Positions 7,108 to 54,336 of a stretch of DNA of 64,000 nucleotides are shown piece by piece. The stretch is from positions 17,644-81,643 of the forward strand of contig JAFRLH010000024.1 in the NCBI GenBank assembly GCA_017431345.1, read 5' to 3'. A program made the position numbers and the translations under genes. The notes beneath the pieces are model-generated. The model did not search any database. It had not been told where the DNA came from and saw nothing but the letters and a program-made list of their open reading frames with translations. Origin of the DNA: Lachnospiraceae bacterium (GTDB lineage: Bacteria > Bacillota > Clostridia > Lachnospirales > Lachnospiraceae). Positions within the stretch are counted from its first letter, which is position 1. Each line of letters starts with the position of its first letter.

Positions 7108-10100
7108 TCATTTGACTTTGACCTTCACTTTTGCAAACAGACCGTTCTGTGCGTAAATATAGATCGTACACGTTCCGGCTTTCCTTGCTTTGATCTTTCC
7201 TTTCTTATTCACGGAAACCACTTTCTTATTGCTCGACTCATAGGACAGCTTTCTGTGCTGCTTCACCTTGATATTCTCCGGCTTCACCTGCACTGCTTTC
7301 AGCTTGAAGGTCTTTCCTTTCTTCAGCGTCAGTTTTTTCTTTTTAACATTCTTCACCTTAACGGAAGTGAAATCTCCGTATTTCTCATTTCCCTTCGTCA
7401 TAAAGTGAATCGACTTGCTTGTGGCGATGACCTTCTTTACGCCTTTGCTGTCTAACGCATAAGCAGCAACAATAAACTTGTAGTAAGTGCCTTTCTTCAG
7501 CTTGATCTTCCTGATTTTGGTGATCTTTTTGGACAGGGTCCCGGCTTTCTTTATCGTTGCGAGCTTCAGATATTTATTCTTCTTCCCGCACTTATTGCCG
7601 TAAATGATGTAGCCCTTCGCGCCCTTGACCCTTGTCCAGGAAAGCGTGACTGAGTTCGTCTTGATCTTCTTCGCTTTCGCCCGGAGGAGGCCGAAGTTTG
7701 AACCCTTCGGATCCCCGTTTCCGGTGATCTTGGCCATGGCTTTATCCGCAGCTTTTACTGTCGGCGCTTTTTCCGGGGACAGAGGGGCAACCTTGCCCGA
7801 ATCGGCTGCTGTTGTCTCTTCCTTACCGGGCTCGTCCGGCTTTGTCTCCTCCTTACCAGGCTCCGTTTCCTTTTCAGGCTCCGTTTCCTTTTCAGGCTCC
7901 GTTTCGGGTTTGGCGTTGTCTTCCCAATGGGCATAGACCGTAGCGTCAGATGTGAAGACCGCAGCGGCTGTCACCTTTTCGCCATCGGTTTTTTCCGTAA
8001 ACCAGCCGTCGAAGACCTTGCCGCTTAATGTCGGCGTCGGCAGGGACGCAAGTTTCCCGTCTCCTCCCGTAGTACCGCTTGCAGGCGATACGGTTCCGCC
8101 GTTCGCGTTGAAAGTAACCGTATAGACCTCCTTGAAGGTGTATGTGAACGTCGTATTCGAGCTGATCACGGCTCCTGTCGGATCGGTATCCCATGCGCCG
8201 TCTGCATAGCCTGTATTCGGTTTCATTCCCGCCGGGATGGCTGCAGGCGTCTCTCCTTCTTCGACCCGCTCCGTTTGTACTTCTGCCGAGCCGTTCGCCC
8301 ATGTACCGTTCACGACACTGTATGTGACGGTGTACTTGACAATTACCGGGATACGGTCTACCTGATCATCCTGACAGATGGAGCAGGTGCGTACTTTCCG
8401 GCCTTCTGTCGTTTCCGTCGGTGCTTTCACGACTTGCCATTCTCCCCAGTTGTGCGTATGAACAGGCGTTTTCACTTCTGCCGCCTCGGACGGGTCAGAG
8501 GCATTCTGTCTGTCACTGCCCTTCATGCGGGCGTACACTTCATACTCCGTGTCCTCTTTCAGGTCTTCCCAGCGGACTTCCCCGTTCTCATCCGGAGTGA
8601 TCCAGGCATCCGGGCTCTTTCCTTTTTCGACGAGCGCGTATTCAGCGCCAGCGGCCGTTACCGTGACGATGACCGTGTCCTCGCTGAGAGCTTTCGCGTT
8701 CGGCGCGGCAGGTGCCGCCTGGTCTTCCTTCGGCGTTGTCACGGTGGTACTTACCGCTTCAGAAGCGGCTTTGTCCCCGGTCTCAGGCTTTCTTGCCCAG
8801 ACAACATACGGTTCACCCGGCAGGAGATCCGTCCACGCAACGTCGGAGGTTCCATCTCCGGAACTTATCGCACTGTCCCAATCCTTATCCGTCGGGGTCT
8901 TTCCGGTCCCAAGGATTAAGTACTCGGCATCTGCCGCGGGATTGTTTACCCGGATCGTATGTGCATCCGCAGCCTCCGCGCTCAGTGACGGGGCGTCCTG
9001 GTTCTGCTTCCATTTCGCGGTATAGGTCGGGTTTGTATCCGGCATGTAGGACGGAATAACCGCATCATTTCCATTGCTGTCCTTCCATCCGCAGAAGGTG
9101 TATCCCTCCCATTCCGGATCCTCCGGCGCCGTGACAGGAGCACCATAGAACCCCTCGATACCGTCGATTGTGTTCCCGCCGTCCGGATCTTCGAAAGTGA
9201 TCGTATAACTTACCGGAGCCCAGACCGCCTTTACAGTCAGATTCTCTGCCGGCATCGTCTCCGGTATGGCAGGCATCCAGCCCTTAAAGGTATAGTGTAC
9301 CTTCTTCGGATCTGTCGGTGCAGTGACAGAGGCGCCGTAATTCATCGTGACCGCCATATCACTCCCTCCGCCGGCGTAGTCGAAGGAGATGGTATACTTG
9401 TTCGCCGTCCATTGTGCTGTCAGGACTTCATCCTGTGTAAAGGTATATTCTCCCTCACATATTTCATTCTCGACATTGTACCAGCCATCAAATGTATAAC
9501 CCGTGCGGGTCGTGGCAAATCTCGGATCCAACAGATTGACTATATCGCCTTCATAATCGGTAAGCGGCTCTACTGCCGTTCCGCCATTCGCGTCAAAACG
9601 CAGCGTCACACGATTCCGTTCGACATACTGCGCGGTCAGCGTTATCGTATTTCCTACTGCTGCATCAGGATTATCCTGTGCATTCCAGTTATCAAAGCGG
9701 AATGTCCCGCCGGCTGAATACAGCTTCCCGTCCGGAGCCTTCCAACCGGTAAATTCGTAACCGGGTTCTGCATCCAGTGCTTGTGCCAGCTCCGTTGTAC
9801 TTCCGTAGGTTACCAGCATGTCATTCGGAACCCGGTGTTCGTAAAGCGGATGGTCGCCCGGATTATATCTCACCAGAACTTTCTTCGGTGTCCAGTGTGC
9901 TGTCAGCGTAACGGTATAATAACTGAATTTACGTTTTCTGTTTTTCCGGATGAGGTCGTTTCCGTTATTATCCTTATCGCAGTACTCCGGTGTAACGCCC
10001 CAGCCCGCTGTTTCATCCCAGCCTTCCGCGACGTAGGACAGCGTCTTCCAGTTTTCGCCGTTCCAGAGCACACCTCTCTGCGTATACCAGCCGGCCAGCT

Positions 10101-41196: not shown

Positions 41197-41880
41197 TTAA
41201 TAATGAAAAGGGCATCTGCTTCCGATACACTGATTATTTTCCGCCGAATGTCTGCAGATGATTCGTGTTTTCTTCATTTCTATGCCGAAATGTTCCTTCA
41301 CAAAATCGATTGCGGCTGCTATAGAGAGATACGAATCCCGCTTGCAGCATCTCGGTCCGCCATTTTCTCCGATCGCTTCCAGTGATTTTGCAGTCATCTT
41401 ATTGGACAATGAAAACGGTTTTCCCTTAAGCGGCGTTGATCCGGAAATGATGGAGACAAACATGCCGGAACTGATCCCTGCGCCGCACGCTCCCCAGAAT
41501 CCGCAGCTGCCTCCGGGCACTTTCCTGCCCCGGTTCAGGATTTCCTGCAGCGCTGTTTCCAGCTTCAGCTCCCCGCCTGCATTTTTATATGCTGTAAGCA
41601 GCGCGGCGCCGACCATCACATGATGTTCCGGGCCGTGCATATGGCAGAACGGCATCGCCATCATCTTTTCAATGATCTCCACCGGGTCCTTTGATGTTTC
41701 CCGAAGACAGATACCGACGATCGCATCCATTCCTGCCGTATGACATGAGTCACAGACAAAATGGCCCTTTATGCAGCGGGTCTTACTCATGATCATTTTA
41801 TGACATACAGCACATTCCATGAGTTCCTCTGTCTCCAGATACTCAAGCGGCGCTTTGCAGATCAGACATTCTTCTTTCAT
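41197..41880 (-). CDS. DUF5714 domain protein
   Basis: A 227-aa cysteine-rich protein that opens with a zinc-ribbon-like CLICKAPLEYLETEELMECAVCHK and then CIKGHFVCDSCH. The DUF5714 body follows, with MPFCHMHGPEHHVMVGAALL, GSCGFWGACGAGISSGMFVSII, GGPRCCKRDSYLSI and the C-terminal CRHSAENNQCIGSRCPFH. The many Cys and His residues suggest metal or Fe-S binding. The family is found in anaerobes and methanogens and has no settled function. The start at 41880 follows GGAGGAATTGCTGT. It stands alone, divergent from the ATP-grasp cluster. Confidence 0.85.
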   Translation of the reverse strand: MKEECLICKAPLEYLETEELMECAVCHKMIMSKTRCIKGHFVCDSCHTAGMDAIVGICLRETSKDPVEIIEKMMAMPFCHMHGPEHHVMVGAALLTAYKNAGGELKLETALQEILNRGRKVPGGSCGFWGACGAGISSGMFVSIISGSTPLKGKPFSLSNKMTAKSLEAIGENGGPRCCKRDSYLSIAAAIDFVKEHFGIEMKKTRIICRHSAENNQCIGSRCPFHY

Positions 41881-42085
41881 ACAGCAATTCCTCCTGTCCG
41901 CGGGAATAATTTTTGTTTTTTTTATGATTGCTGTCACCATTATATTTCACGCCATTTATATGTCAATAGAAGCAGTCCTGATCATCCTTTTACTGATCTG
42001 TTTCACCATAAGAACATTTCACGCTTTCTGAACAACTTCTTTTTCAGCCATATTGATTCCCGGCTGATTTTTGCAGCATATCGAA

Positions 42086-42115
42086 TTGACAAAAACGTTA
42101 AGGACATGATATGAT
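42086..42115 (+). promoter_or_regulatory. Promoter of the ATP-grasp cluster
   Basis: TTGACA (42086-42091), an 18-base spacer and TATGAT (42110-42115). The predicted start near 42122 lies at the very base of the terminator hairpin described next. The rest of 41881-42085 is AT-rich with nothing else recognisable. Confidence 0.65.
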
Positions 42116-42124
42116 TTTTTTGGC

Positions 42125-42162
42125 AAAGGCGCCTTTCACTTCGGTGTTCGGCGCCTTTTTTT
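42125..42162 (+). terminator. Intrinsic terminator in the leader of the ATP-grasp cluster
   Basis: GGCGCC stem (42128-42133 with 42150-42155), extended by AAA/TTT, an inner CAC-TTCG-GTG hairpin, then seven T. It begins three or four bases after the predicted start point and 55 bases before the ATP-grasp ATG, so full-length transcripts must pass it. Confidence 0.8.
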
Positions 42163-42216
42163 AAAGCGGGGATCCGCAGGATGTGTTTCTGAGGATGAAA
42201 GGAGGAATGTACTGCA

Positions 42217-43539
42217 ATGGCAAATTACGATAATCTGCTGGAACATGCCGGCGCCATCAACGGCCAGCTGGCCCGCTACGGCGTCAAATTCGGCATCTAC
42301 AAGAACGGCACATTTAAAGAACAGCTCTTTCCTTATGATCCGATTCCCAGGATCATCGGGAAGGATGAATTCGCATATCTGGAACGAGGCCTGAAGCAGC
42401 GAGTAAAAGCACTGAATCTGTTCCTGAAGGACGTCTATACGGAAAAAAAGATCATTGCGGACGGCGTCGTGCCTGCGGACTTTGTCTATGCAGCCAGCGG
42501 CTATCTGGCTCCCTGTGAAGGGATCGTTCCTCCGAAGGAAGTCTACTCCCACATTTCCGGCATCGATCTTGTCCTGGGAAAAGATGGCGTGTGGTATATT
42601 CTGGAAGACAATCTCCGGGTGCCTTCCGGCGCGTCCTATCCGGCTATTGCAAGGAATCTGGAACGCCGCTGCAGCCCCCGTACCTTCCGCGACACGGCAA
42701 TCGAAGACAACCGCGATTACCCGAAGATCCTGAAGCATACCATGGATTATGTGAATACGGGCGGCATCAATGTGGTGCTTACGCCGGGCCGGTATAATGC
42801 AGCGTATTTTGAGCACTCGTTCCTGGCAGAGCAGATGGGCGTTCCGCTGGTCAGCTGCAATGATCTGGAAGTGGAGGGGGATTACCTCTACTTTACCGGA
42901 TATGCAGGCCGGAAAGAAAGAGTTGGCGCTGTATACCGCCGGATCTCCGATGAGTACATGGATCCCATGACCTTTAATCCGGAATCCCTGATCGGTATCC
43001 CGCACATTTTCGAGGTCTACCGCAAAGGGAACGTCGCGCTGCTGAACACGCCCGGAAACGGCATCGCGGACGACAAGGGCATTTACTACTTTGTCCCGAA
43101 AATGATACAATATTATCTCCATGAAGAACCTATCCTGCACAATGCACCGACTTACCTTCCTTTCTATGAGGAGGACCGCAGATACGTTCTTGAGAACTTC
43201 GATACGCTGGTCATCAAGGATGTGGCGGAAGCGGGAGGTTATGGTGTTGTCTTCGGAAGCAAACTCTCTCCCGAAGAAAAGGAGCGGTTCATTGCCATGA
43301 TCCTGGCAGAGCCCCGGCGGTTCATTGCGCAGGAAGTAATCGATTTTTGTGATATCCCAATCGTGGAAGGCGATACGCAGGTGGAACGCAAGGCTGATCT
43401 TCGTGCTTTTGTTCTTACCAGTGAAGAACCTGTTGTCTGGAAGAGCGGACTGACCCGTTTCTCCAGGAATCCGGATTCGTTTATTGTAAATTCATCTCAG
43501 GGAGGAGGTTTTAAAGATACATGGGTATTACGTCAGTAA
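42217..43539 (+). CDS. Circularly permuted ATP-grasp protein (COG2308)
   Basis: A 440-aa ligase of the circularly permuted ATP-grasp type. Marks are IYKNGTFKEQLFPYDPIPRII, the signature segment YILEDNLRVPSGASYPAIARN near residue 130, KDVAEAGGYGVVFGSK (about 330) and the terminal LRAFVLTSEEP with GGGFKDTWV. Such enzymes are predicted to join amino acids or peptides through acyl phosphate intermediates. ATG follows AGGAGGAATGTACTGCA. The 3' end overlaps the alpha-E gene by 19 bases. The neighbouring alpha-E, transglutaminase-like and M14 genes reproduce a gene neighbourhood predicted to make and trim an unusual peptide or amide. No substrate is established. Confidence 0.93.
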   Translation: MANYDNLLEHAGAINGQLARYGVKFGIYKNGTFKEQLFPYDPIPRIIGKDEFAYLERGLKQRVKALNLFLKDVYTEKKIIADGVVPADFVYAASGYLAPCEGIVPPKEVYSHISGIDLVLGKDGVWYILEDNLRVPSGASYPAIARNLERRCSPRTFRDTAIEDNRDYPKILKHTMDYVNTGGINVVLTPGRYNAAYFEHSFLAEQMGVPLVSCNDLEVEGDYLYFTGYAGRKERVGAVYRRISDEYMDPMTFNPESLIGIPHIFEVYRKGNVALLNTPGNGIADDKGIYYFVPKMIQYYLHEEPILHNAPTYLPFYEEDRRYVLENFDTLVIKDVAEAGGYGVVFGSKLSPEEKERFIAMILAEPRRFIAQEVIDFCDIPIVEGDTQVERKADLRAFVLTSEEPVVWKSGLTRFSRNPDSFIVNSSQGGGFKDTWVLRQ

Positions 43540-44189
43540 TCAACACCGACCGTCTGTATTGGCTGGGCCGCTACAGCGAGCGCGTTTTTACGACGCTCAG
43601 ACTGTTTTCGATCTCCTTCGATAAGCTGATCGATGAATATGAAGATGATTATCACGGATTCTGCCGTTCTCTCGACATTCCCGACATTTACAAGGACAAA
43701 CAGGATTTTATAGAGCGCTATGCCTTCGACCCGGAGAATCCTAATTCCATCGTGTCCAACCTGCAGCGCGCCTATGACAATGCCATCGAACTGCGGGAGG
43801 AGATCGGAAGCGAAGCATTTTCCTATGTCCAGATGGCCGTCTACGAAATGAATGCCGCAAAGACCTGTGAATCACCTCTTCTGCGTTTTCAGAAGATCAC
43901 AGATGCGATCCTTGCTTTCTGGGGCTGCGCGGACGACCAGATCGATGACGAGAACACCCGCAACATCATTAAGATCGGAAAACGGGTGGAGCGGCTGGAT
44001 CTTTACGCCCGCCTGGGAGAAGACCGGGAGGCGATCCTGCGCGAGCTGAACCGCCTGTCAGGCCGGATCGACCATACAAATCTGATTTACCGGAAAGAGG
44101 ATCTGCAGCATCTGAAGGATCTTGTGAATGCGCCGGTACTCTCCTACCGGGAAATCATTGAAACTGCAGAACAGCTTGTGGAGTGCTGA
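43521..44189 (+). CDS. Alpha-E domain protein (COG2307)
   Basis: A 222-aa all-helical protein that starts MGITSVINTDRLYWLGRYSERVFTTLRLF, the standard alpha-E opening, and ends LVNAPVLSYREIIETAEQLV. It is shorter than many alpha-E proteins (about 310 aa). Alpha-E proteins nearly always accompany circularly permuted ATP-grasp enzymes and carry conserved acidic and Arg residues, but their role is unknown; they may be a partner subunit or a second catalytic domain. It overlaps the ATP-grasp gene by 19 bases, with GGAGGAGG 12 bases before the ATG, so translation is coupled. Confidence 0.9.
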   Translation: MGITSVINTDRLYWLGRYSERVFTTLRLFSISFDKLIDEYEDDYHGFCRSLDIPDIYKDKQDFIERYAFDPENPNSIVSNLQRAYDNAIELREEIGSEAFSYVQMAVYEMNAAKTCESPLLRFQKITDAILAFWGCADDQIDDENTRNIIKIGKRVERLDLYARLGEDREAILRELNRLSGRIDHTNLIYRKEDLQHLKDLVNAPVLSYREIIETAEQLVEC

Positions 44190-44191
44190 TC

Positions 44192-44974
44192 GTGAAAGTT
44201 CTTTTATTTCATTATCATCTGATGTTCCGTATGGACAATCCTGTCAGCAGACATCATTTTACCCTGCGCTGTATCCCGAAATCGGATGAGCGGCAGAAAA
44301 TCTTGCAGCTGCAGCGTTTTATCTTCCCCTGCGACTTTCTGCGGGAAAGCAGGGACCAGTGGGGCAATGATCTCCTTTACGGAAGTTACCGGAGGAACCA
44401 TTCCCGATTCGAAGCAAATATCAGCGGACAGGCTGTCACCGGCCTGTCCGTCTGCACCCCCGCAGGTCCGCCCGAAAAGGAACGGATTTTCCGGTTCGCA
44501 ACGCCGCTGACGGAACCGGATGCTTCCCTGCGGGCTTTTTCCGCCTCTTTAGGCATTCAGTCCGGCGCGCCGCAGGAAATGGAAACGGTGATGCAGGCTG
44601 TCCATAACGCGCTTTCCTATGAACCCGGAACGACCACCGTACGAACCACTGCCGCCCAGGCTTTTGCCCTGAGGCATGGTGTATGCCAGGATTACGCCCA
44701 CGTAATGCTGGCAGTGCTCCGTGCGGCAGGCATTCCTTCCAGGTATGCCGCCGGCATGCTGCAGGGAGAAGGCGAAAGCCACGCCTGGGTCGAGGTCCTT
44801 CATCGGGGAAACTGGTACGCCTATGATCCCACCAACTGTGTGACAGTATCTGACCAGCATATCAAGCTTTCACACGGAAGGGACTCGGATGACTGCGCCA
44901 TCAACCGCGGCGTCTTTTTTGGCGCCGGAGGACAGCAGACCGAGATTTCTGTTATTGTCACGGAAAACTGCTGA
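44192..44974 (+). CDS. Transglutaminase-like cysteine protease/amidase
   Basis: A 260-aa protein with an N-terminal transglutaminase-associated beta region (about 1-95) and a C-terminal papain-fold domain. The catalytic triad is complete: Cys165 in GVCQDYAHVML, His197 in ESHAWVEV and Asp212 in YDPTN. Cytoplasmic, no signal peptide. Such enzymes hydrolyse or exchange amide bonds and are fixed partners of the ATP-grasp/alpha-E pair. The GTG at 44192 is preferred (TGGAG eight bases before); GTG 44183 is also in frame. It begins two bases after the alpha-E stop. Confidence 0.9.
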   Translation: MKVLLFHYHLMFRMDNPVSRHHFTLRCIPKSDERQKILQLQRFIFPCDFLRESRDQWGNDLLYGSYRRNHSRFEANISGQAVTGLSVCTPAGPPEKERIFRFATPLTEPDASLRAFSASLGIQSGAPQEMETVMQAVHNALSYEPGTTTVRTTAAQAFALRHGVCQDYAHVMLAVLRAAGIPSRYAAGMLQGEGESHAWVEVLHRGNWYAYDPTNCVTVSDQHIKLSHGRDSDDCAINRGVFFGAGGQQTEISVIVTENC

Positions 44975-44984
44975 GGAGACTGTC

Positions 44985-45920
44985 ATGATAGAAGATATTG
45001 TAAGTTTGCATCTGCCTGTCGAAGAGACATTCCGGATCCGCAAGAACGTGATCCGGCACGGGGAGGGAAAACGGCTCTGTGTGGTCACCGGCATTCACGG
45101 TGACGAACTGGAAGGCCAGTATGTCTGTTTTCTTTTAGCCCGGATCCTCAATCAGCAGCCGGAACTGCTCCACGGCAGCGTGGAGATCTATCCGGCGGTG
45201 AACCCGCTGGGCATTGATTCCATCCAGCGCGGGATCCCGGGATTTGATCTGGACATGAACCGCACATTCCCCGGAAGTGATTCCGGCGTCATGACGGAAT
45301 TTGTCGCAAAGAAGCTTGTCGCCGATGCGGCAGGCGCCGATGCAGTGTTTGATATTCATGCCAGCAACATTTTCCTTACCGAAGTGCCGCAGATCCGGAT
45401 CAATGAGCTTCACCGGGAAATGCTTCTGCCCCTGGCCAGGCAGGCCAACATGGATTTTATCTGGATCCACGGTGCCAGTACAGTTCTGGAATCCACTTTT
45501 GCCTACTCGCTGAATTCCATCGGCACCCCCTGCCTTGTCGTGGAGATGGGCGTCGGAATGCGCATGACAGAAAAATACGGGCAGCAGCTGACGAACGGCA
45601 TCCTGCATGTCATGAAAACGATGGGAATGTGGGATGGAGATGTTCCTCCTGTCAGTGAACCTGTCCTGTGTGATGCGGAGGACGAAGTGATCTTTCTGAA
45701 CGCATCCTGTTCCGGCATGTTCATGAAGACAAAGGAACAGGGATCGCTGGTGAAGAAAGGGGAGACCGTCGGTTATGTGTTCCATCCGCTCCGGGGAGAA
45801 GTTCTGGAATACGTAACCGCAGAGAAAAGCGGCCTTCTGTTCACCATCCGGGAATACCCGCTGGTCGAAGAAGGCTCTCTTATCGGACGGATCCTGGTCA
45901 GGGAGGATATGCAGAAGTGA
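44985..45920 (+). CDS. AstE/aspartoacylase-like M14 metallo-hydrolase, intact active site
   Basis: A 311-aa zinc carboxypeptidase-fold protein. Zinc ligands are His38 and Glu41 (GIHGDELEG) and His125 (FDIHASN); the substrate-binding Asn92-Arg93 is in LDMNRTFPGS and the probable catalytic Glu is in LVVEMGVGM. The C-terminal part is a lipoyl-like beta barrel (SGMFMKTKEQGSLVKKGETVGYV). It would remove an acyl or amino acid group from a small amide. The start at 44985 follows GAGGAGACTGTC. It overlaps its paralogue by four bases. In this cluster it may process the ATP-grasp product. Confidence 0.9.
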   Translation: MIEDIVSLHLPVEETFRIRKNVIRHGEGKRLCVVTGIHGDELEGQYVCFLLARILNQQPELLHGSVEIYPAVNPLGIDSIQRGIPGFDLDMNRTFPGSDSGVMTEFVAKKLVADAAGADAVFDIHASNIFLTEVPQIRINELHREMLLPLARQANMDFIWIHGASTVLESTFAYSLNSIGTPCLVVEMGVGMRMTEKYGQQLTNGILHVMKTMGMWDGDVPPVSEPVLCDAEDEVIFLNASCSGMFMKTKEQGSLVKKGETVGYVFHPLRGEVLEYVTAEKSGLLFTIREYPLVEEGSLIGRILVREDMQK

Positions 45921-46846
45921 AAGAAAGCATTATCTATCAGATTTCCCATATTTACCGGGATGATTACCGGATCCGCGCCTTTACTTTCGGGCAGGGCGAA
46001 AAATCCCTCTGCATCGTCGGAAGCATCCGCGGCAATGAATACCAGCAGATCTTCCTGTGCTCCCGGATGATCCGGCGGCTGAAAAAGCTGGAAGAAGAAG
46101 GACGTTTCGCGGAAGGACATGAGGTCATGGTGATTCCTTCCCTCAATCCCGCTTCGATGAATATCGGCAAACGTTTCTGGGGCATTGACAATACGGATAT
46201 CAACAGGATGTTTCCCGGCTATCCGCTGGGCGAGACCACACAGCGGATCGCAGCGGGTGTATTCGAAGTCATCAACAAATACAACAACGGTATTCAGTTC
46301 ACCTCCTTTTACATGCCCGGAGACTTCCAGCCTTATGTGCAGATGATCCGCACAGGCTATGAGGATCCGGAGCGGGCAAAGGATTTCGGGATGCCTTATA
46401 TCGTTGTACGCGATCCCAGGCCTTATGATACCACTACGCTGAATTACAACTGGCAGATCTGGGAAACGGATGCTTACAGTCTCTATTCCGGCACGACCAC
46501 CCACCTCTGCCCGGAAAGCGCGGATATGGCGGCGGATGCCATCGAGCGGTTCATGATCTGCCGCGGGATCCTGAAAGGAACGCCGGCTCCCGCAGCCCCC
46601 GGCCGTATCTTCCATTATGACGATCTCCTGAATGTCCGGACCACCCGGGCCGGTCTGTATCAGAACCTGGCAAAAGACAGCGCAAAGGTATCCGCAGGAC
46701 AGGTACTGGCAGAGATCACCGACCCCTGCACCGGAGAGATCCTGGAGACCCTGAAAAGCTCTGCGGACGGCATCATTTTCTTCCAGTATAACGATCCGCT
46801 GATCTACGCGTTTACATCTGCATTCAAGATCCTGGCAGATGAATAA
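45917..46846 (+). CDS. AstE-like M14 paralogue with lost zinc ligands
   Basis: A 309-aa paralogue of the preceding protein, alignable along its length, with the same N-terminal order and C-terminal barrel. The zinc site has changed: HGDE is Arg38-Gly39-Asn40-Glu41 (SIRGNEYQQ), the third ligand position reads QFTSF around residue 129 with no His, and the VVEMG catalytic Glu segment is replaced by SLYSGTTTH. DINRMFPG is kept. It is therefore probably not a zinc hydrolase and may bind the substrate, pair with the intact paralogue, or have a new activity. Overlap of four bases with the upstream gene makes equal amounts likely. Confidence 0.87.
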   Translation: MKESIIYQISHIYRDDYRIRAFTFGQGEKSLCIVGSIRGNEYQQIFLCSRMIRRLKKLEEEGRFAEGHEVMVIPSLNPASMNIGKRFWGIDNTDINRMFPGYPLGETTQRIAAGVFEVINKYNNGIQFTSFYMPGDFQPYVQMIRTGYEDPERAKDFGMPYIVVRDPRPYDTTTLNYNWQIWETDAYSLYSGTTTHLCPESADMAADAIERFMICRGILKGTPAPAAPGRIFHYDDLLNVRTTRAGLYQNLAKDSAKVSAGQVLAEITDPCTGEILETLKSSADGIIFFQYNDPLIYAFTSAFKILADE

Positions 46847-46918
46847 GAGGAGACACCGGGAACAGTTTTTATGTAACCGTCTCCGGTATTGCCAGGAAGA
46901 ACAGAAAGGAGAACCAGG

Positions 46919-47653
46919 ATGTTCTGTATTTATTGCGGTACCCGGATTCCGGACGACGCGGTGTTCTGCCCGGTCTGCGGCGCGAAAGCCGCTGTGATCA
47001 AAGCGGGAGAAAAAAAGAAACCCGCGGAGATGCTCGCTGTCGTGTGCGCATCCTGCGGAAGCGGCCAATTAAAAAGGATCGGCAGAGGCGAGTATCTGTG
47101 CGAACATTGCGGCAGCCGTTTTTTTGCGCAGGAACCGGAAAATTTCACGGACAGTGAAAAGGAAAAAGCAGAACTCCTGGCCTTATTTGCAGAGGCAGAG
47201 AAACATGCTGACAAGGGGGATTATCGGGCAGAACTTATTGCGCTTAGCAAAGGGCTGAAACTGGCGCCTGAAGACGGCACACTGCTGCTGAAACTGGGAC
47301 GCGCGTGCATGAGACTCGGTTTCATACAGGAGGCGATGGAATATTACCGGAAGGCTGAAGAAGTCTGCCCCGATGATCCGATTGTCTATGTCAACCAGGC
47401 TGTATTGTATCAGAAGCAGGACATGGCGGCTGAAGCCAGGCCGCTGCTTGAAAAGGCGCTTGCCATGATCGAAGCTGATCCCATGTCAGCGACAGCCGCC
47501 GATGTTGCTGTCACCTTCAGCAACTATGCTCTGTGTATCGGTACACTTGGTGATACGGCAGAGGCAACAAAATATCTGACCATGGCAAAAAAGAAGGGCT
47601 GCAGTGACCAAACCATAGAGTATGTCTGCAAAGCCCTGAAGATCCGTATTTGA
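46919..47653 (+). CDS. Zinc-ribbon and TPR protein
   Basis: A 244-aa cytoplasmic protein. Residues 3-20 are a zinc ribbon (FCIYCGTRIPDDAVFCPVCGA), and residues about 43-66 a second one (CASCGSG ... CEHCGSRF). From about 80 onward there are four to five TPR-like helix pairs (GDYRAELIALSKGLKLAPEDG, GFIQEAMEYYRKAEEVCPDDP, DMAAEARPLLEKALAMI). It is a scaffold for protein or nucleic-acid contacts. The start at 46919 follows AAGGAGAACCAGG. It lies 72 bases after the second M14 gene in the same direction with no terminator between, so it may belong to that system. Confidence 0.85.
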   Translation: MFCIYCGTRIPDDAVFCPVCGAKAAVIKAGEKKKPAEMLAVVCASCGSGQLKRIGRGEYLCEHCGSRFFAQEPENFTDSEKEKAELLALFAEAEKHADKGDYRAELIALSKGLKLAPEDGTLLLKLGRACMRLGFIQEAMEYYRKAEEVCPDDPIVYVNQAVLYQKQDMAAEARPLLEKALAMIEADPMSATAADVAVTFSNYALCIGTLGDTAEATKYLTMAKKKGCSDQTIEYVCKALKIRI

Positions 47654-48647: not shown

Positions 48648-49397
48648 TCAGCGGACGGCTTCGCCGTAAGTATGACGGAAGGATACCGCTATCCTCTTCT
48701 TGCGGCAGTCCGCGCAAAGCGTATCGGGTTCGCTGCCGGTCTTTTCCGCGGCATAGGCAAGTTCTTCTTCTGTGCCGATGACGCTGCCGCAGTCTGCACA
48801 GTGCACCAGACGGAACGTCCTGTTCCAGATCGTCCTGGTGTCCGCGGTCTCCCCGATCGGGATGGCGCCGGCAGGACAGACATAAGCACAGCTTCCACAG
48901 CCGACGCAGACACTGCTGGGTTCATGATACGGCGTCGCGATCTCCTTGGTCACTCCACGATTCACAGTGGATATGGCGCCTACGGAAAGCTCTCCGCATG
49001 CTTTGACGCAAAGCCCGCACATCACACACCTGTTCCCGGTATCTTCCGTAAATCTTTCGATGACCGGCGCACCGTATTTCTCACACAATGCCCTGATCTC
49101 CGGGCTGTCCGGCGCTTTCTTCTGCAGAAGCGCAAGCGTCATGCCGCGCAGTCTGCGCACCTTCTCATTATCGGTATAGATCTCGCACTCCCGTTCCACG
49201 GGATAGACACAGGATACAACGATCCTGCCGCGTCCCTTTTCCACAACCTCAACAATGCATACTCTGCACGACCCCTGTCCGGGGAATCCGTCATGATAAC
49301 ATAACGTAGGGATCTCGATGCCATTGCGTCTGGCGATCTGGAGAATGAATTCTCCCTTCTCGCATTCGCAGACGGTTCCGTTTATGGTGATCTTCAT
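48648..49397 (-). CDS. NuoG/HoxU-like 2Fe-2S and 4Fe-4S subunit
   Basis: A 249-aa iron-sulfur protein. Residues 1-80 are a 2Fe-2S domain (KITINGTVCECEKGEF, PTLCYHDGFPGQGSCRVCIVEV). Then come a His-less linker and two [4Fe-4S] motifs, CVMCGLCVKACG (about 143) and CVGCGSCAYVCPAG (about 185). The end is a zinc-ribbon-like CADCGS plus CADCRKK. Start 49397 follows GGGAGGGATGTGTC. It overlaps the NuoF-like gene by four bases. It would connect the FMN/NADH subunit with the aldehyde oxidoreductase's ferredoxin chain. Confidence 0.9.
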   Translation of the reverse strand: MKITINGTVCECEKGEFILQIARRNGIEIPTLCYHDGFPGQGSCRVCIVEVVEKGRGRIVVSCVYPVERECEIYTDNEKVRRLRGMTLALLQKKAPDSPEIRALCEKYGAPVIERFTEDTGNRCVMCGLCVKACGELSVGAISTVNRGVTKEIATPYHEPSSVCVGCGSCAYVCPAGAIPIGETADTRTIWNRTFRLVHCADCGSVIGTEEELAYAAEKTGSEPDTLCADCRKKRIAVSFRHTYGEAVR

Positions 49398-51190
49398 GAC
49401 ACATCCCTCCCCTTTGTATAGACGGCATCGAACCGGCAGGCCTCGCGGCAGCTTCCGCAGCTGATACAGATACCGGGATCGATCCTGTGCGGCTGCTTCA
49501 GTGCACCGGACACTGCTCCTGCAGGACATGCTTTCGCGCAGGCTGTGCATCCGCGGCATTTATCCGGATCAACGGCAAACGCTGTAAGCTTTGTGCAGAC
49601 TCCTGCCGGACAGCGGTGCTCCAGGATATGTGCTTCGTACTCGTCCCGGAAATACCGGAGCGTCGTCAGTACGGGGTTGGGCGCGGACTTGCCTAACGCG
49701 CAGAGTGATGCTTCCTGCATCGTTTCGCCAAGCGTCTCCAGCAGGTCCAGATCTTCCAGTTTTCCCCGTCCTTCACAAATGTCAGTCAGAATGGCAAGCA
49801 TCTGTTTAAGGCCTTCCCGGCAGGGCGTGCATTTCCCGCAGCTTTCCCCGCACAGGAACTGCACATAGTATCTCGCTACTTCCACCATACAGCTGCGGTC
49901 GTCCATGACGATCATTCCGCCGGAACCCATCATGGCACCGTATTTGCTCAAAGTATCGAAATCGACCGGAAGATCCAGCATCTTTTCCGGGATACAGCCG
50001 CCGGAGGGACCGCCTGTCTGAACGGCCTTGAACGGCCGGTCTCCCTGTATTCCGCCGCCGATCTCAAAGATCAGTTCACGAAGCGTTGCTCCCATGGGGA
50101 CTTCCACCAGGCCGGTCCGCTTGACCTTTCCGACCATGGCAAAGACTTTCGTTCCTTTGGAACCCTCCGTTCCGAGTGACGCGAAATGTTCTCCTCCGTG
50201 AAGAATGATATAGGGTACATTGGCAAGCGTTTCCACGTTGTTCAGCACTGTCGGTTTATTCCAGAGTCCGTGCTGCACGGAACGGATATATTTTGCCCTG
50301 GGTTCTCCGACGCGGCCCTCAATTGACGCCATGAGCGCCGTCGATTCACCGCAGACGAATGCTCCGCCTCCGCGGACGACAGACAAATGAAGCTTCCTTC
50401 CGGAACCCATCATATTATCGCCAAGGATCCCGGCAGCCTCTGCTGCCCGGATCGCTTTTCTGATATGATCCAAAGCAAGATTGTATTCGTCACGGATATA
50501 AAGGAATCCTTCTTCCGCGCCGATCGCAAGCGCGCAGACCGCCATCCCTTCCAGCACACTGTGCGGATCGCCTTCCAGGATCGAACCGTCCATGAATGCG
50601 CCGGGATCGCCTTCATCGCCGTTGCAGGCAACGTATTTGGGGAAATCATCATATCCTGCTGCAGTACGCCATTTTCTGCCTGTCGGGAAACCGGCGCCGC
50701 CGCGCCCGCGAAGTCCTGAAGTTTCGATCTCTGACAGGATTTCCTCCGGCGTCATCTGCAGCGCTTTCTTCAGCGCCTGATATCCGCCCGCGTCGATATA
50801 ATCCTGCAGCTTCTCGGGATCAATGATGCCGACATTGCGCAGCGCGATCTTGATCTGTCTGGAATAGAACGGGTTCTCCTGAAGCTTCCTTACGCGTTCC
50901 CCCTCGTCATTTTTAAACAGGAGCCTGTCTACCGTCTCATCCGTCCGAATTGTCTTCTGCAGGATATCCTTTACATCCTTCGGCCTGACTCTGTAATACG
51001 CGATATCATCAGGCATGACTGTTACCAGCGGTCCGTTCTCACAGATGCCGATACATCCGGTCTCCTTTACGGCGCATTCTACATGGAGATCCGCGCCAAG
51101 TTCTTTGATCTGCTTTTTGAATTCCTCTGCGACTGCCCGGCTCCCGTTGGCAAGGCATCCGGTACCACAGCATACTCTTATGGTCTTCAT
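49394..51190 (-). CDS. nuoF: NuoF/HydB-like NADH-binding flavoprotein
   Basis: A 598-aa subunit. An N-terminal thioredoxin-like 2Fe-2S domain (CCGTGCLANGSRAV) is followed by the FMN/NADH core: SGLRGRGGAGFPTGRKW, CNGDEGDPGAFMDGSILEGDPHSVLEG and GAFVCGESTALMASIEG. Then the N3-type cluster CGESCGKCTPCREG and a C-terminal pair of [4Fe-4S] motifs (CRGCTACAKACPAG, CISCGSCREACRF). This is the layout of HydB/NfnB-like and bacterial bidirectional hydrogenase diaphorases. With NuoE and the HoxU-like subunit it would transfer electrons between NAD(H) and the aldehyde oxidoreductase. Confidence 0.94.
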   Translation of the reverse strand: MKTIRVCCGTGCLANGSRAVAEEFKKQIKELGADLHVECAVKETGCIGICENGPLVTVMPDDIAYYRVRPKDVKDILQKTIRTDETVDRLLFKNDEGERVRKLQENPFYSRQIKIALRNVGIIDPEKLQDYIDAGGYQALKKALQMTPEEILSEIETSGLRGRGGAGFPTGRKWRTAAGYDDFPKYVACNGDEGDPGAFMDGSILEGDPHSVLEGMAVCALAIGAEEGFLYIRDEYNLALDHIRKAIRAAEAAGILGDNMMGSGRKLHLSVVRGGGAFVCGESTALMASIEGRVGEPRAKYIRSVQHGLWNKPTVLNNVETLANVPYIILHGGEHFASLGTEGSKGTKVFAMVGKVKRTGLVEVPMGATLRELIFEIGGGIQGDRPFKAVQTGGPSGGCIPEKMLDLPVDFDTLSKYGAMMGSGGMIVMDDRSCMVEVARYYVQFLCGESCGKCTPCREGLKQMLAILTDICEGRGKLEDLDLLETLGETMQEASLCALGKSAPNPVLTTLRYFRDEYEAHILEHRCPAGVCTKLTAFAVDPDKCRGCTACAKACPAGAVSGALKQPHRIDPGICISCGSCREACRFDAVYTKGRDVS

Positions 51191-51204
51191 ATCCCTGCCC
51201 CCTT

Positions 51205-51702
51205 TCAGCCGTTCTCTTCCGGATCAGCAGCCGTATCCCCGGCGCCCCGGTAGGAATCCAGGATCTGCGGCAGTTTTTCCATGGTCATCTTCCCGTAATA
51301 GGTACCGTCCACCACCATAACGGGCGCCATTGCGCAGGATCCCAGGCAATTGACCTGCTCCAGGGAGAACAAGCCGTCCGGAGTAGTTTCTCCGTCCCCT
51401 ATTCCCAGATGCCTTCTGATCCCGTCGCGCAGGTTCATGGAACCGCGTATATGGCACGCCGTCCCGTCACAGAGTTTAATAATGTGTTCGCCCTTCGGTG
51501 TCAGGCTCAGCGCCTTGTAGAAGGTCGCCATGGAATAAAGGGAGGATAACGGGCATCCGAGATATTCCGACAGGGCTTCCATCCCCTCCCTGGGAATATA
51601 ATTATACTTGCGCTGCATATCCTGCATCATTGCGAGGCAATACCTCTGTTCACGCGGGTATTCCTGCAGGATCGCGGTTATTTCTTCTGTCCTGATCTGC
51701 AA
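51205..51702 (-). CDS. nuoE: NuoE-like 2Fe-2S subunit
   Basis: A 165-aa thioredoxin-like [2Fe-2S] protein. It begins with the helical ITAILQEYPREQRYCLAMMQDMQRKYNYIPREGMEAL; the cluster cysteines are in CDGTACHIRG and NCLGSCAMAPV. It is the usual partner of NuoF and lies 14 bases before it. The C-terminal tail is Asp/Glu-rich. Confidence 0.93.
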   Translation of the reverse strand: MQIRTEEITAILQEYPREQRYCLAMMQDMQRKYNYIPREGMEALSEYLGCPLSSLYSMATFYKALSLTPKGEHIIKLCDGTACHIRGSMNLRDGIRRHLGIGDGETTPDGLFSLEQVNCLGSCAMAPVMVVDGTYYGKMTMEKLPQILDSYRGAGDTAADPEENG

Positions 51703-51761
51703 ATCATCACCAGCCTCTCACCTGAAATGCCGCCGGGCCTGCTTACCCCGGCGGCATTTCC

Positions 51762-52043
51762 TTATCCTCCCGCAACGACCGGGAAGATCAGCACGGTATC
51801 GGAGTCTTTCAGCACGGTATTGATCCCGTCAAGGAACTCCGCCCGCCTTCCGTTTACAAGAATGATCAGGTTCGCGCCGAAATCACTTCCGTCCGGGGTA
51901 AAATAGAAACTGCGGAACTTCTCTCCGTACGCTTCGGAAAGCTCTTCTCCCAGAGCCCGCAGATCCCTGCATGCAGGTCTTGTGATCTCCTTGCAGCCCG
52001 CGTAATCCTTATCCCGTACATAAGCAAAAAACCTGACTCTCAT
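51762..52043 (-). CDS. MoaD/ThiS-family sulfur carrier
   Basis: A 93-aa ubiquitin-like protein: MRVRFFAYVRDKDYAGCKEIT at the start, ILVNGRRAEFLDGINTVLKDSDTVLIFPVVAGG at the end. The C-terminal Gly-Gly is the tail that is thiocarboxylated to donate sulfur to the pterin dithiolene. Encoded directly after the tungsten aldehyde oxidoreductase gene, it probably serves tungsten-pterin cofactor synthesis for that enzyme, as in other AOR loci. Confidence 0.9.
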   Translation of the reverse strand: MRVRFFAYVRDKDYAGCKEITRPACRDLRALGEELSEAYGEKFRSFYFTPDGSDFGANLIILVNGRRAEFLDGINTVLKDSDTVLIFPVVAGG

Positions 52044-52062
52044 AGCTGTTCCTTTCGGTCTG

Positions 52063-53862
52063 TTACATACCTAATTCTTTCAGCTTCTCCGCTGTAGGAA
52101 TGCCTTCTGCATCCCAGCCGCGCGCTGCATAATATTCCGCGAGCATAGTATAAAGCTGGCTGACCCTGCCCTCTGCAGGTCCCTCGGGAAGCGCATCGCG
52201 CAGAAGCCTGGGCGGCAGCGTATCCTTCTCCACGCCGGCAGCGATATTGAACTTCTTTTCCAGATTCCAGATACGCTCTCCCTTTAAGAGGATCTCAGCA
52301 TCGCTCTCGTCGCTTCCGACAGCTTCGCGGTACATTCCGGCGATCTCCGGCAGGCCGATCCCGAAGGTAGTGAACAGGCAGATGCCGGTGGAATCACAGA
52401 GCGCTGTAAGATCCTGGAACAGCTTGAGTGTCGCTGCCTTCCCCTCTGTTACCAGCGGATCCAGCTTCATCGGAACGCCGAGCACCTCCGGAGAGATCAT
52501 GTATCCGCGGACATGGCATCCGCCGCGGTTCGACGTAGCATACTCCAGCCCGATTCCCTGGATCGCGCGGCCGTCATAAGCCGGCATTTCCTGCTTCTTG
52601 ACGGACATGGACAGCTCGGGATGTCCGTATTTTTCAGCCATACGGTAGGATCCGAGGCCGAGCACTTTGCCGAAGCCTTCCATCTTGCAGGTCATCTCGC
52701 AGGCTTTGACCATCGCTTCCGCATCCCCGAACTGCAGCGGGAATCCGATGTCCTCCAGAGGCAGGTATCCTTTTTCATACAGTTCCATTGCGCAGGCGAT
52801 CGTAGCGCCCATCGTGATCGGGTCGATCCCGTACTGGTTGCAGAGGAAGTTCGCCTTGCATACCGCGCCAAGATCATCGATGCCGCAGTCAGAGCCGAAG
52901 GACCAGCCTGCTTCGTACTCGGGACCTTCGCCTTTGGATTTGAAGGCGCCTTCCTTGATCTCCGCCACGCGGCCGCAGCCGATGGAGCATCCGAAACACC
53001 CTTTGTTCTTCAGCAGATGCTTTGCCGCCAGCTCCTCGCCGGAGATGCTGTCTGCAGTCTCAAAAAGCGATCCCGCGCTTCCGTTATTGACCGGAAGGCC
53101 GCCGACGCCGTTTACGATATTCACAAGGATCATGGTCCCGTATGCGGAAAGTCCCGCGCCGGTGACCGGATGCGCCGCCAGTTTCTGTCTTGCGCTGATG
53201 GCTTCTTCAAAGAACTTGTCCGGCCTTGCGACTTCCACGGAACCGGTACCCTTTACAGCAATGGCTTTCAGTTTCTTGACACCCATGACGGTGCCCATAC
53301 CGCCGCGGCCTGCCGCACGGTGTTTGTCATTCAGGATGCCGGCAAACAGATTGCCGTTTTCCGCGGCAGCGGAAATACAGGCGATGCGGAAATTCTCACC
53401 GCACTCTTCATTCAGAATATCTGTCGTCTCGAAAACATCCTTTCCCCAGAGATGGGCAGCGTCACGCAGTTCGACAGTACCGTCGCTGATATAAAGATAT
53501 ACGGGCTTTTCCGAAGCGTTTTCAAAAATGATCCCGTCATAGCCGGCATATTTCAGTTCCGGGCCGAAATGTCCGCCGGAGTTGGCTGCGCCGATCGTCC
53601 CTGTAAGCGGGGATTTCGCCACGGCATTGTAGCGTCCGGAAGAAGTCGCTGCCGTTCCGGTCAGCGGTCCCGTCATAAAGATCAGTTTGTTCTCAGGGCT
53701 TAAAGGATCCACTTTCGGATCGCACTCATCACAGAAATACTTTGTTCCCAGACCTCTGGCGCCGACATAATCATCCGCATTCTTCGTATTCAGAGGCTCC
53801 GTTTTGATCGTTCCCGCCTGCAGATCGATGCGCAGGATCTTTCCGACATATCCGTTCTTCAT
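52063..53862 (-). CDS. Aldehyde:ferredoxin oxidoreductase (tungsten)
   Basis: A 599-aa tungstopterin enzyme oxidising aldehydes to carboxylic acids, or reducing acids with strong electron donors. It opens MKNGYVGKILRIDLQAGTIKTEPL and has the pterin-contacting KSPLTGTIGAANSGGHFGPELKYAGYDGIIF. RAAGRGGMGTVMGVKKLKAIAVKG follows. The [4Fe-4S] cysteines are in CFGCSIGCGR (about 290) and, late in the chain, ALCDSTGIC. GPEYEAGWSFGSDCGIDDL is also typical. Five companion genes for NADH linkage and ferredoxin resemble the AOR complexes that couple acid/aldehyde chemistry to NAD+. Substrate unknown. Confidence 0.94.
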   Translation of the reverse strand: MKNGYVGKILRIDLQAGTIKTEPLNTKNADDYVGARGLGTKYFCDECDPKVDPLSPENKLIFMTGPLTGTAATSSGRYNAVAKSPLTGTIGAANSGGHFGPELKYAGYDGIIFENASEKPVYLYISDGTVELRDAAHLWGKDVFETTDILNEECGENFRIACISAAAENGNLFAGILNDKHRAAGRGGMGTVMGVKKLKAIAVKGTGSVEVARPDKFFEEAISARQKLAAHPVTGAGLSAYGTMILVNIVNGVGGLPVNNGSAGSLFETADSISGEELAAKHLLKNKGCFGCSIGCGRVAEIKEGAFKSKGEGPEYEAGWSFGSDCGIDDLGAVCKANFLCNQYGIDPITMGATIACAMELYEKGYLPLEDIGFPLQFGDAEAMVKACEMTCKMEGFGKVLGLGSYRMAEKYGHPELSMSVKKQEMPAYDGRAIQGIGLEYATSNRGGCHVRGYMISPEVLGVPMKLDPLVTEGKAATLKLFQDLTALCDSTGICLFTTFGIGLPEIAGMYREAVGSDESDAEILLKGERIWNLEKKFNIAAGVEKDTLPPRLLRDALPEGPAEGRVSQLYTMLAEYYAARGWDAEGIPTAEKLKELGM

Positions 53863-53865
53863 CTG

Positions 53866-54336
53866 TCACGCCTCCTTTACCAGTACATCGCGATACCGCT
53901 CTCCGACAAGTTTCCTCTTATCCGGCAGCGTATCGGTCTCTTCGAATACGATGGCGTGTCCGGGACAGTACTTCGCGCACTTCGGATCGCCTTCGCACAG
54001 GTCACACTTGAATACGCGTCTCGCTTCCGGATGATAGGTAATGTTTCCGAGCGGGCAGGCATTCATGCACATGCGGCAGCCGATGCACTTCCGGTAGTTC
54101 ATGACTACCGCGCCGTTCTCATCGCGGCTGATCGCCTTTACGGGACATACATCCAGGCAGGAAGGCTCTTCGCACTGAAGGCACATGACGGGGACCGCTA
54201 CGGCGGCTTCGTCATACTCAAATACCGTTACATTGGCCATCTTGGGATTGAATTTCCCGAAATGGCCGAAGGAACAGACCAGTTCACAGGTCCGGCAGCC
54301 GATACATTTTTCCGGCTTGATCGATAACTGTTTCAT
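53866..54336 (-). CDS. Polyferredoxin (HycB/CooF-like 4x[4Fe-4S])
   Basis: A 156-aa electron carrier with four cysteine sets: CIGCRTCELVCSFGHFGKFN, CLQCEEPSCLDVCPV, CIGCRMCMNACPLG and CDLCEGDPKCAKYCPG. This is the spacing of DMSO-reductase-family small subunits and CooF. First gene of the operon, three bases before the AOR gene, so it is the probable immediate electron partner of AOR, linking to the NuoEF-like module. A promoter-like TTGTAC-16-TATAAA lies upstream near 54402-54429. Confidence 0.93.
   Translation of the reverse strand: MKQLSIKPEKCIGCRTCELVCSFGHFGKFNPKMANVTVFEYDEAAVAVPVMCLQCEEPSCLDVCPVKAISRDENGAVVMNYRKCIGCRMCMNACPLGNITYHPEARRVFKCDLCEGDPKCAKYCPGHAIVFEETDTLPDKRKLVGERYRDVLVKEA

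Follow-up and report, generated by a model that had tools for sequence, protein, structure and literature searches.

The five genes considered here lie in a 64,000-nucleotide stretch of a Lachnospiraceae bacterium genome (assembly GCA_017431345.1, 3.27 Mb in 94 contigs), which was taken from contig JAFRLH010000024.1 and is called the window. With their leader they occupy positions 42086-46846 of the plus strand and encode a circularly permuted ATP-grasp amide ligase, an alpha-E helical protein, a transglutaminase-like protein and two paralogous M14-family proteins, M14a and M14b. The five-gene set is a fixed unit, and it occurs in gut and rumen bacteria. Its genes are probably switched on when nitrogen is scarce, as judged from sequence, and there is somewhat more reason to believe than to doubt that they form a nitrogen-scarcity operon for forming and cleaving an amide bond on a small nitrogen-containing compound. 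A first-pass annotation, made from the DNA letters, rightly saw an amide- or peptide-type gene set; it overlooked the terminator in the leader, and with it the strongest clue to function.

The five genes as a unit

Do the genes belong together? The ATP-grasp protein was searched for in 295 genomes of the order. There were 25 matches, 23 of them near full length (the window included), one a fragment and one weak, and regions were fetched around 23 of the 25, i.e. all except the window and the weak match. The order ATP-grasp, alpha-E, transglutaminase, M14a, M14b is found in 20 of 20 loci with room (19 fetched loci and the window, all found via ATP-grasp). Two loci with intact order, L031 and L042 (L denotes loci and G genomes), have a stop inside ATP-grasp, and the L031 transglutaminase is broken as well; in L041, ~1.5 kb lies between transglutaminase and M14a. 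The contigs of L035, L037 and L048 end early, with the order in agreement up to the contig end. Locus L049 holds a remnant (7730-8053), in which ATP-grasp residues 6-82 are joined straight to M14b residues 276-306; this fusion of the start of the first gene to the end of the last indicates that all five genes were lost in one deletion.

Named genomes were searched with an M14b profile and the best 80 of at least 573 relatives were kept. Judged by their titles, most of these 80 come from Lachnospiraceae or other Clostridia, with gut and rumen as frequent sources; a small number of metagenome bins bear the label Treponema or Gastranaerophilales, and the isolates include Eubacterium plexicaudatum ASF492, Lachnospiraceae bacterium 3-1 and two Pseudobutyrivibrio. 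In the resulting set of 120 loci, 80 of which were obtained via M14b, all five genes stand in order in 90, counting split frames and L194, where the second M14 scored slightly higher as M14a. One locus, L051, is rearranged, and many of the remaining loci are short contigs. Strong M14b matches (E below 1e-120) are present in 15 of 391 genomes of a class-wide sample, and the same gene order is found in two deep lineages, including all six matching genomes of family f156. Conservation thus extends well beyond the ATP-grasp/alpha-E pair, a point on which the first-pass annotation had let its proposal depend.

That annotation had described six tightly packed co-directional genes. The genes and their coordinates are real, but the unit has five members, with intergenic spacings of -19, -7, +10 and -4 bases. 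The sixth, a zinc-ribbon/TPR gene that had been proposed as a partner, starts +72 bases past M14b. Neither it nor the DUF5714 gene nor three other window neighbours gave a match (E<=1e-3) across the 120 loci, 76 of which have room downstream of M14b. The reading frame listed for M14a starts at 44889, upstream of the probable ATG at 44985.

Leader and candidate regulon

Promoters like TTGACA-N18-TATGAT precede the leaders of many relatives, and a strong intrinsic terminator lies ahead of ATP-grasp in 71 of 88 upstream regions (86 distinct; several are from one genus, so that the counts are not independent). The ribosome site of the window comes after the leader terminator and before ATP-grasp. 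The 5' foot of the terminator reads like GAAC-AAAGGC-GTTC and can form a short stem capped by a loop of six bases; because this mini-hairpin and the terminator overlap, the two would be mutually exclusive. A hexaloop with A first and G fourth (A1..G4) on a stem of at least 3 bp is found in 56 of the 71 terminators, window included, and other loop letters in 1-11 of them (11 being G..G). With a stem of at least 4 bp the counts are 44 for A1..G4 and 0-4 for other letters, as against 75 of 2367 control hairpins (other terminator-like hairpins from the same loci, predicted on both strands with coding stretches included). Pairing was tested on 61 rows chosen by loop letters alone, with pairing not required: position 2 of the stem is paired in 56 rows (at most 51 in shuffles), position 3 in 54 (at most 50) and position 4 in 42 (at most 42), and positions 5-8 give no signal. 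The stem also covaries. In the corrected alignment 91.4% of cells are paired, and there are 39 double changes versus 14.7 in shuffles, none of 500 shuffles being as high.

ANTAR proteins recognize a hexaloop with A first and G fourth, and known cases overlap the 5' arm of a terminator (PMC3369931, PMC8934654). The leaders described here resemble the ANTAR antiterminator leaders of eut, nas, ami and nitrogen genes in that the same A1..G4 mini-hairpin lies within an intrinsic terminator upstream of nitrogen genes, and also in the presence of an ANTAR gene near glutamine synthetase. The host genome of the window gave three ANTAR matches in two genes, and one of the two lies on the same strand as a glutamine synthetase gene, 558 bases past it (the start of the synthetase gene is beyond the stretch read). 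An ANTAR protein is the likely reader of the leader.

Which other genes carry such a leader? A covariance model, R1, was built from 30 of 66 operon leaders, window included, and used to scan 10 genomes. Best hits were taken at E<=0.004, the E-values being rough. Of these 24 hits, six lie before the five-gene operon (four of them, in G000, G158, G199 and G222, belong to the training set), and the window leader, also a training sequence, matches at E 5.6e-4. In our own functional grouping, 13 of the 24 precede nitrogen or amino-acid genes, and none of the 13 was in training. R1 hits stand before GlnA followed by an ANTAR protein (G199), before GlnA and GlnA-Amt/PII (both G160), before GlnN-Amt (G222, two tandem hits) and GlnN (G093), before Amt/PII (G142), and before a glutamine amidotransferase gene with CarA and a CarB-looking gene, the last unscanned (G222). 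Amino-acid ABC transporters follow hits in G456, in G158 (behind a PPDK_N gene) and in G150, where ~860 bases before the binding protein are unassigned; a Peripla_BP_6 transporter follows another in G158. In the same genome a hit precedes a glutamine-dependent NAD synthase (NadE) ahead of the five-gene operon. An ambiguous hit in the window's own genome precedes a family-less gene and then a PurF-like gene. Three of the 24 are before unrelated genes or none, and one (G150:C15:126325), which matches both strands, was left unclassified. At E<=0.5 the own genome has five hits: the five-gene operon, the PurF-like case, a case with no gene, gltBD (E 0.019; GltB scores 1577 bits, cut-off 1047) and a PuuD-like hydrolase (E 0.14).

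The leader is thus common to glnA, glnN, amt, carA, gltBD and amino-acid transporters, and on this basis it is concluded that the five-gene operon belongs to a predicted nitrogen-assimilation regulon. This placement does not depend on the NtrC control that has been published for Anbu operons.

Other associations of the leader were observed. PPDK_N-domain proteins lie behind the same leader type in L121 (460-3030) and L260 (5044-7641), once adjoining PII and a PuuD-like gene. Nine loci (L032, L081, L085, L090, L095, L096, L106, L110 and L266) have a cluster of an amino-acid ABC transporter with a cytidylate-kinase-like and/or FUSC/HAD membrane gene, and several of these clusters have the same leader type in front, beside the operon or away from it. 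The leaders of L028, L062, L067, L070 and L075 carry a palindrome like TTGTATACAA just past the -10 box. We take it to resemble a GntR-type operator, presumably a possible second control.

The encoded proteins and their neighbourhoods

Pfam agrees with the gene identities given by the first-pass annotation, and its contrast of an intact M14 with a ligand-deficient paralogue is borne out by the residues. M14a has the HxxE...H zinc ligands and the catalytic Glu, and scores above the PF24827 cut-off. H38 and E41 are present in 104 of 106 relatives (the other two are unaligned there), H125 and E187 in all 106. At the position of the first zinc His of M14a, M14b has Arg38 in 109 of 109 relatives; the window M14b has Tyr opposite His125 and no Glu opposite E187, and it retains the AstE/AspA family fold. 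M14b is a conserved pseudoenzyme. Six M14b-type proteins (L191, L194 and L222-L225) retain the metal ligands, with Met in place of the catalytic Glu in all six; these are an older form, a step between enzyme and pseudoenzyme. Compared with the AstE/AspA/DoeB/CphZ amidohydrolases, M14a is far under the equivalog cut-off (DoeB, 63 of 402.7 bits), and M14b differs in that its metal site is lost. The characterised relatives that were matched, DoeB and CphZ, act on small amides.

The full Cys-His-Asp triad noted earlier in the transglutaminase-like protein is kept in 90 of 90 relatives. The PF04168 match of the short alpha-E protein spans model positions 7-166 of 294, and its structure is predicted with a pLDDT of 91.4. 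Only one relative of the ATP-grasp protein found by sequence has been solved, 3n6x. The ATP-grasp alignment (A3) has 21 rows; omitted from the alignments A1-A5 were L045 (M14b), L031, L042 and L049 (ATP-grasp) and L031 (transglutaminase). A glutathionylspermidine synthetase identity was considered for the ligase and rejected, as it gives only CP_ATPgrasp_1 and CP_ATPgrasp_2 at E<=1e-3 and no GSP_synth, which we take to be the Pfam name for the ligase domain of that enzyme. The entry 3n6x carries the glutathionylspermidine synthetase name as 'putative'.

What might the substrate be? Flank clusters were assembled, after removal of repeats, from loci with enough flanking sequence, 85 on the upstream side and 76 on the downstream side. 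An amino-acid ABC permease is a neighbour in 13 of 120 loci, always on the same strand within 4.5 kb. A PuuD-like C26 hydrolase is a neighbour in 10 (nine on the same strand within 4.5 kb, one on the opposite strand, none farther), its scores falling under the PuuD equivalog cut-off. FUSC/HAD membrane proteins are neighbours in 11 loci. A count of strong C26 proteins (E<1e-30) in 14 genomes gave 0-2 for each; in G160 such a gene abuts the operon, in G158 one is ~5 kb downstream, and in G456 one is ~12 kb before the M14 pair. In genus g84 (L030 and L033, families scanned in L033) the operon is preceded by genes for PotC-like and PotD-like proteins, putrescine aminotransferase (678 bits in L033, cut-off 612), aldehyde dehydrogenase, a GABA-aminotransferase-like (GabT-like) protein below its cut-off and an iron alcohol dehydrogenase, and is followed by a PuuD-like gene. 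Locus L127 has PII, PotC-like and PotD-like genes downstream. In G456 the M14 pair is preceded by an R1-type leader, an amino-acid transporter, PucR and a GABA aminotransferase that scores 539 bits (TIGR00700 cut-off 506.65); agmatinase and PuuD-like genes stand still farther upstream. With gaps of 326-525 bases between genes, this may or may not be one transcript. These neighbourhoods suggest polyamine- or GABA-derived amides. There is a likeness to the Puu pathway (gamma-glutamyl-putrescine to GABA), as PuuD-like, GabT-like and putrescine genes lie beside the operon in some relatives, but the unit lacks a PuuA-type ligase, in whose place the ATP-grasp may hypothetically act.

Two neighbours of the operon in the window may be noted. 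The DUF5714 protein (41197-41940, minus strand) adjoins the operon and is not a member of it; it is a relative of the MbdU metal-binding proteins, scoring 141 of 600 bits. Positions 48648-54336, also on the minus strand, hold what we take, from the translations, to be an aldehyde:ferredoxin oxidoreductase-like cluster with a ThiS-like protein and NADH-dehydrogenase-type electron-transfer subunits.

Table 1. Positions of the leader elements and genes in the window and, where a locus is named, of M14b-type proteins in related loci
Feature	Position	Strand	Basis or remark
Sigma-70-type promoter TTGACA-N18-TATGAT	42086..42115	+	Predicted by sequence inspection
ANTAR-type mini-hairpin GGC[AAAGGC]GCC, hexaloop A1/G4	42122..42133	+	3 bp stem only in the window
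Intrinsic terminator in leader, overlaps mini-hairpin	42125..42162	+	Predicted fold, -19.0 kcal/mol
Circularly permuted ATP-grasp amide ligase	42217..43539	+	PF14403 452 bits, PF04174 419 bits
Alpha-E helical protein, short form, 222 aa	43521..44189	+	PF04168 91 bits
Transglutaminase-like protein	44183..44974	+	PF01841 71 bits, PF08379; Cys168-His200-Asp215
M14a, AstE/DoeB-type amidohydrolase	44985..45920	+	PF24827 (AstE_AspA_cat) 86 bits, residues, tree
M14b, paralogous pseudo-amidohydrolase	45917..46846	+	AstE_AspA_cat 41 bits; without zinc His ligands and catalytic Glu
Zinc-ribbon/TPR gene	46919..47653	+	Neighbour, outside the five-gene unit
M14b-type protein with metal ligands	L191 2987-3970	-	Met for catalytic Glu
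M14b-type protein with metal ligands	L194 11576-12565	+	Met for catalytic Glu

Relation to Anbu operons and possible function

The first-pass annotation regarded the system as a candidate undescribed one. The trio of ATP-grasp, alpha-E and transglutaminase has in fact been described: it makes up the core of the Anbu operon, whose suggested and still unconfirmed function is the synthesis of peptides or tagging (PMC5666114, PMC6376114), and one such ATP-grasp releases phosphate from ATP, with no activity reported for Anbu (PMC6376114). No later function assignment for the trio was found in a literature search, nor any description of the twin-M14 version, the search not covering Iyer et al. 2009, a paper cited for the gene set. 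The five-gene operon is like the Anbu type in having the three core genes together; it differs in that Anbu is missing, twin AstE-like M14 genes follow instead and alpha-E is shortened. A proteasome-family protein (PF00227, Anbu) was found in none of 23 genomes of the order. Each of five other Bacillota tested has one elsewhere in its genome. In G688 and G832, which have the trio with no M14 beside it, such a gene lies elsewhere in the genome. The absence of Anbu here argues that the core chemistry needs no proteasome-like peptidase.

Published nitrogen data on Anbu operons match the regulon described above. In Pseudomonas putida, nitrogen limitation raises PP_2686, PP_2687 and PP_2688 by 12.6, 11.0 and 14.7 fold in the first strain column, and these genes rise in all three columns (PMC7801951); PP_2685 (Anbu) and PP_2688 are listed behind nitrogen-sensitive promoters (PMC8050072). 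A Burkholderia cenocepacia cluster of DUF404/407, DUF403 and transglutaminase is under NtrC and sigma54 (PMC5491218), the same domains are associated with urea-metabolism domains in marine metagenomes (PMC3597751), and a candidate RpoN box is listed before a CP_ATPgrasp gene (PMC13207237). Regulation in the window appears to be through the leader terminator rather than NtrC and sigma54. The control mechanism differs across phyla; the nitrogen theme is common.

How might the operon work? Transcription would start past the promoter and normally halt at the leader terminator. Under nitrogen shortage, an RNA-binding regulator of the ANTAR type may stabilise the A1..G4 mini-hairpin and block the terminator, so that the five genes are read. 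The same antitermination would serve the genes for glutamine synthetase, glutamate synthase and ammonium and amino-acid uptake that have the leader. By the chemistry of its family, the ATP-grasp would activate a carboxylate (e.g. glutamate) and join it to an amine, probably together with alpha-E; the transglutaminase-like enzyme may move or cut the amide, and M14a could remove the acyl or amino-acid part of the product. M14b may be the partner of M14a or a substrate-binding subunit, kept beside it since before the lineages split. With the neighbourhoods of some relatives as a guide, nitrogen scavenging via polyamine- or GABA-derived amides would be the most likely role.

Several points weigh against this reading. 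The R1 scan had no ANTAR-free-genome or scrambled-model control. No strong terminator was found in 17 of the 88 upstream regions, which include loci with other genes before ATP-grasp and the L031 and L069 regions, which lie inside a gene. The mini-hairpin stem of the window has 3 bp, and the close relative L027 has no mini-hairpin that pairs. A classical ANTAR target has a pair of hairpins, and antitermination is said to require both; one hexaloop is enough for binding, and both are contacted for antitermination (PMC3369931, PMC8934654). Here the hexaloop is usually single, and tandem sites occur in few loci. A recruiting P1 hairpin was not found: upstream A..G loops number 8 of 65 and other letter pairs 3-13, with no excess. 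In the published P. putida data, the third strain column is still induced 14-20 fold, and PP_2685 barely changes (1.1 fold, first strain column; PMC7801951). Comparison of the predicted alpha-E structure yielded no informative match. Lastly, polyamine or GABA context is a minority feature, as 110 of 120 loci have no PuuD-like neighbour, and the window flanks have none of the polyamine/GABA neighbour genes.

Could the leader hairpin be an ordinary terminator, or the signal of another factor, with the operon outside the nitrogen regulon? The lack of a second hexaloop and the handful of best R1 hits that are unclassified or precede unrelated genes or none would fit, but the enrichment of the hexaloop over control hairpins, the stem covariation and the sharing with glnA, glnN, amt and gltBD make this improbable, and a non-ANTAR factor could act without altering the regulon. 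More improbable still is an M14 pair that works independently of the trio and is only carried along with it. Pairs without an adjoining trio exist in L181/L279 (G456), L180 (G093) and L187 (G548), the trio is without an adjoining M14 in G688, G880 and G832 (where alpha-E is fused to transglutaminase), and L041 has its wide transglutaminase-M14a gap. Against this stand the order common to two deep lineages, the tight spacing in most loci and the joint deletion in L049, and the stand-alone G456 pair itself has a leader of this type upstream of it, the gaps between genes reaching 525 bases.

Peptide tagging or protein modification is a more serious contender, though unlikely. The ATP-grasp would tag proteins, and the transglutaminase-like protein and M14 pair would trim or remove the tag in place of Anbu. 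Such a role has been proposed for the trio with Anbu (PMC5666114, PMC6376114), M14 enzymes cleave terminal amide bonds, and with Anbu absent something else could stand in. However, the intergenic spaces in the window leave no room for a small tag gene, the recurrent neighbours are genes of small-molecule uptake and catabolism, and the characterised M14 relatives have small amides as substrates. A cyanophycin-like storage cycle, in which the ATP-grasp builds a nitrogen-rich isopeptide from which the transglutaminase-like protein and M14a/M14b release amino acids, seems quite unlikely. DoeB and uncharacterised relatives match equally well, so that CphZ is not singled out, and control by nitrogen shortage suits use more than storage. 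The ATP-grasp family here presumably also differs from cyanophycin synthetase, which counts against storage as well.

The nitrogen-scarcity reading can be carried further, tentatively and with considerable doubt, to a new nitrogen-scavenging route in Clostridia. The ATP-grasp and alpha-E would glutamylate or acylate polyamines or omega-amino acids, neighbouring aminotransferases and dehydrogenases would process them, and an M14a-M14b heteromer would release the product, all under single-hexaloop ANTAR-type control. If true, this route would also account for the nitrogen induction of the Anbu operon. M14b, for its part, is a clean example of a dead paralogue retained beside its partner, its altered site fixed in every relative aligned. 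Here the Anbu core is accompanied by two M14 proteins, and the characterised relatives of these use small amides as substrates. The placement of the core among nitrogen genes by an independent mechanism makes an unexplained and widespread gene set testable by a few direct assays.

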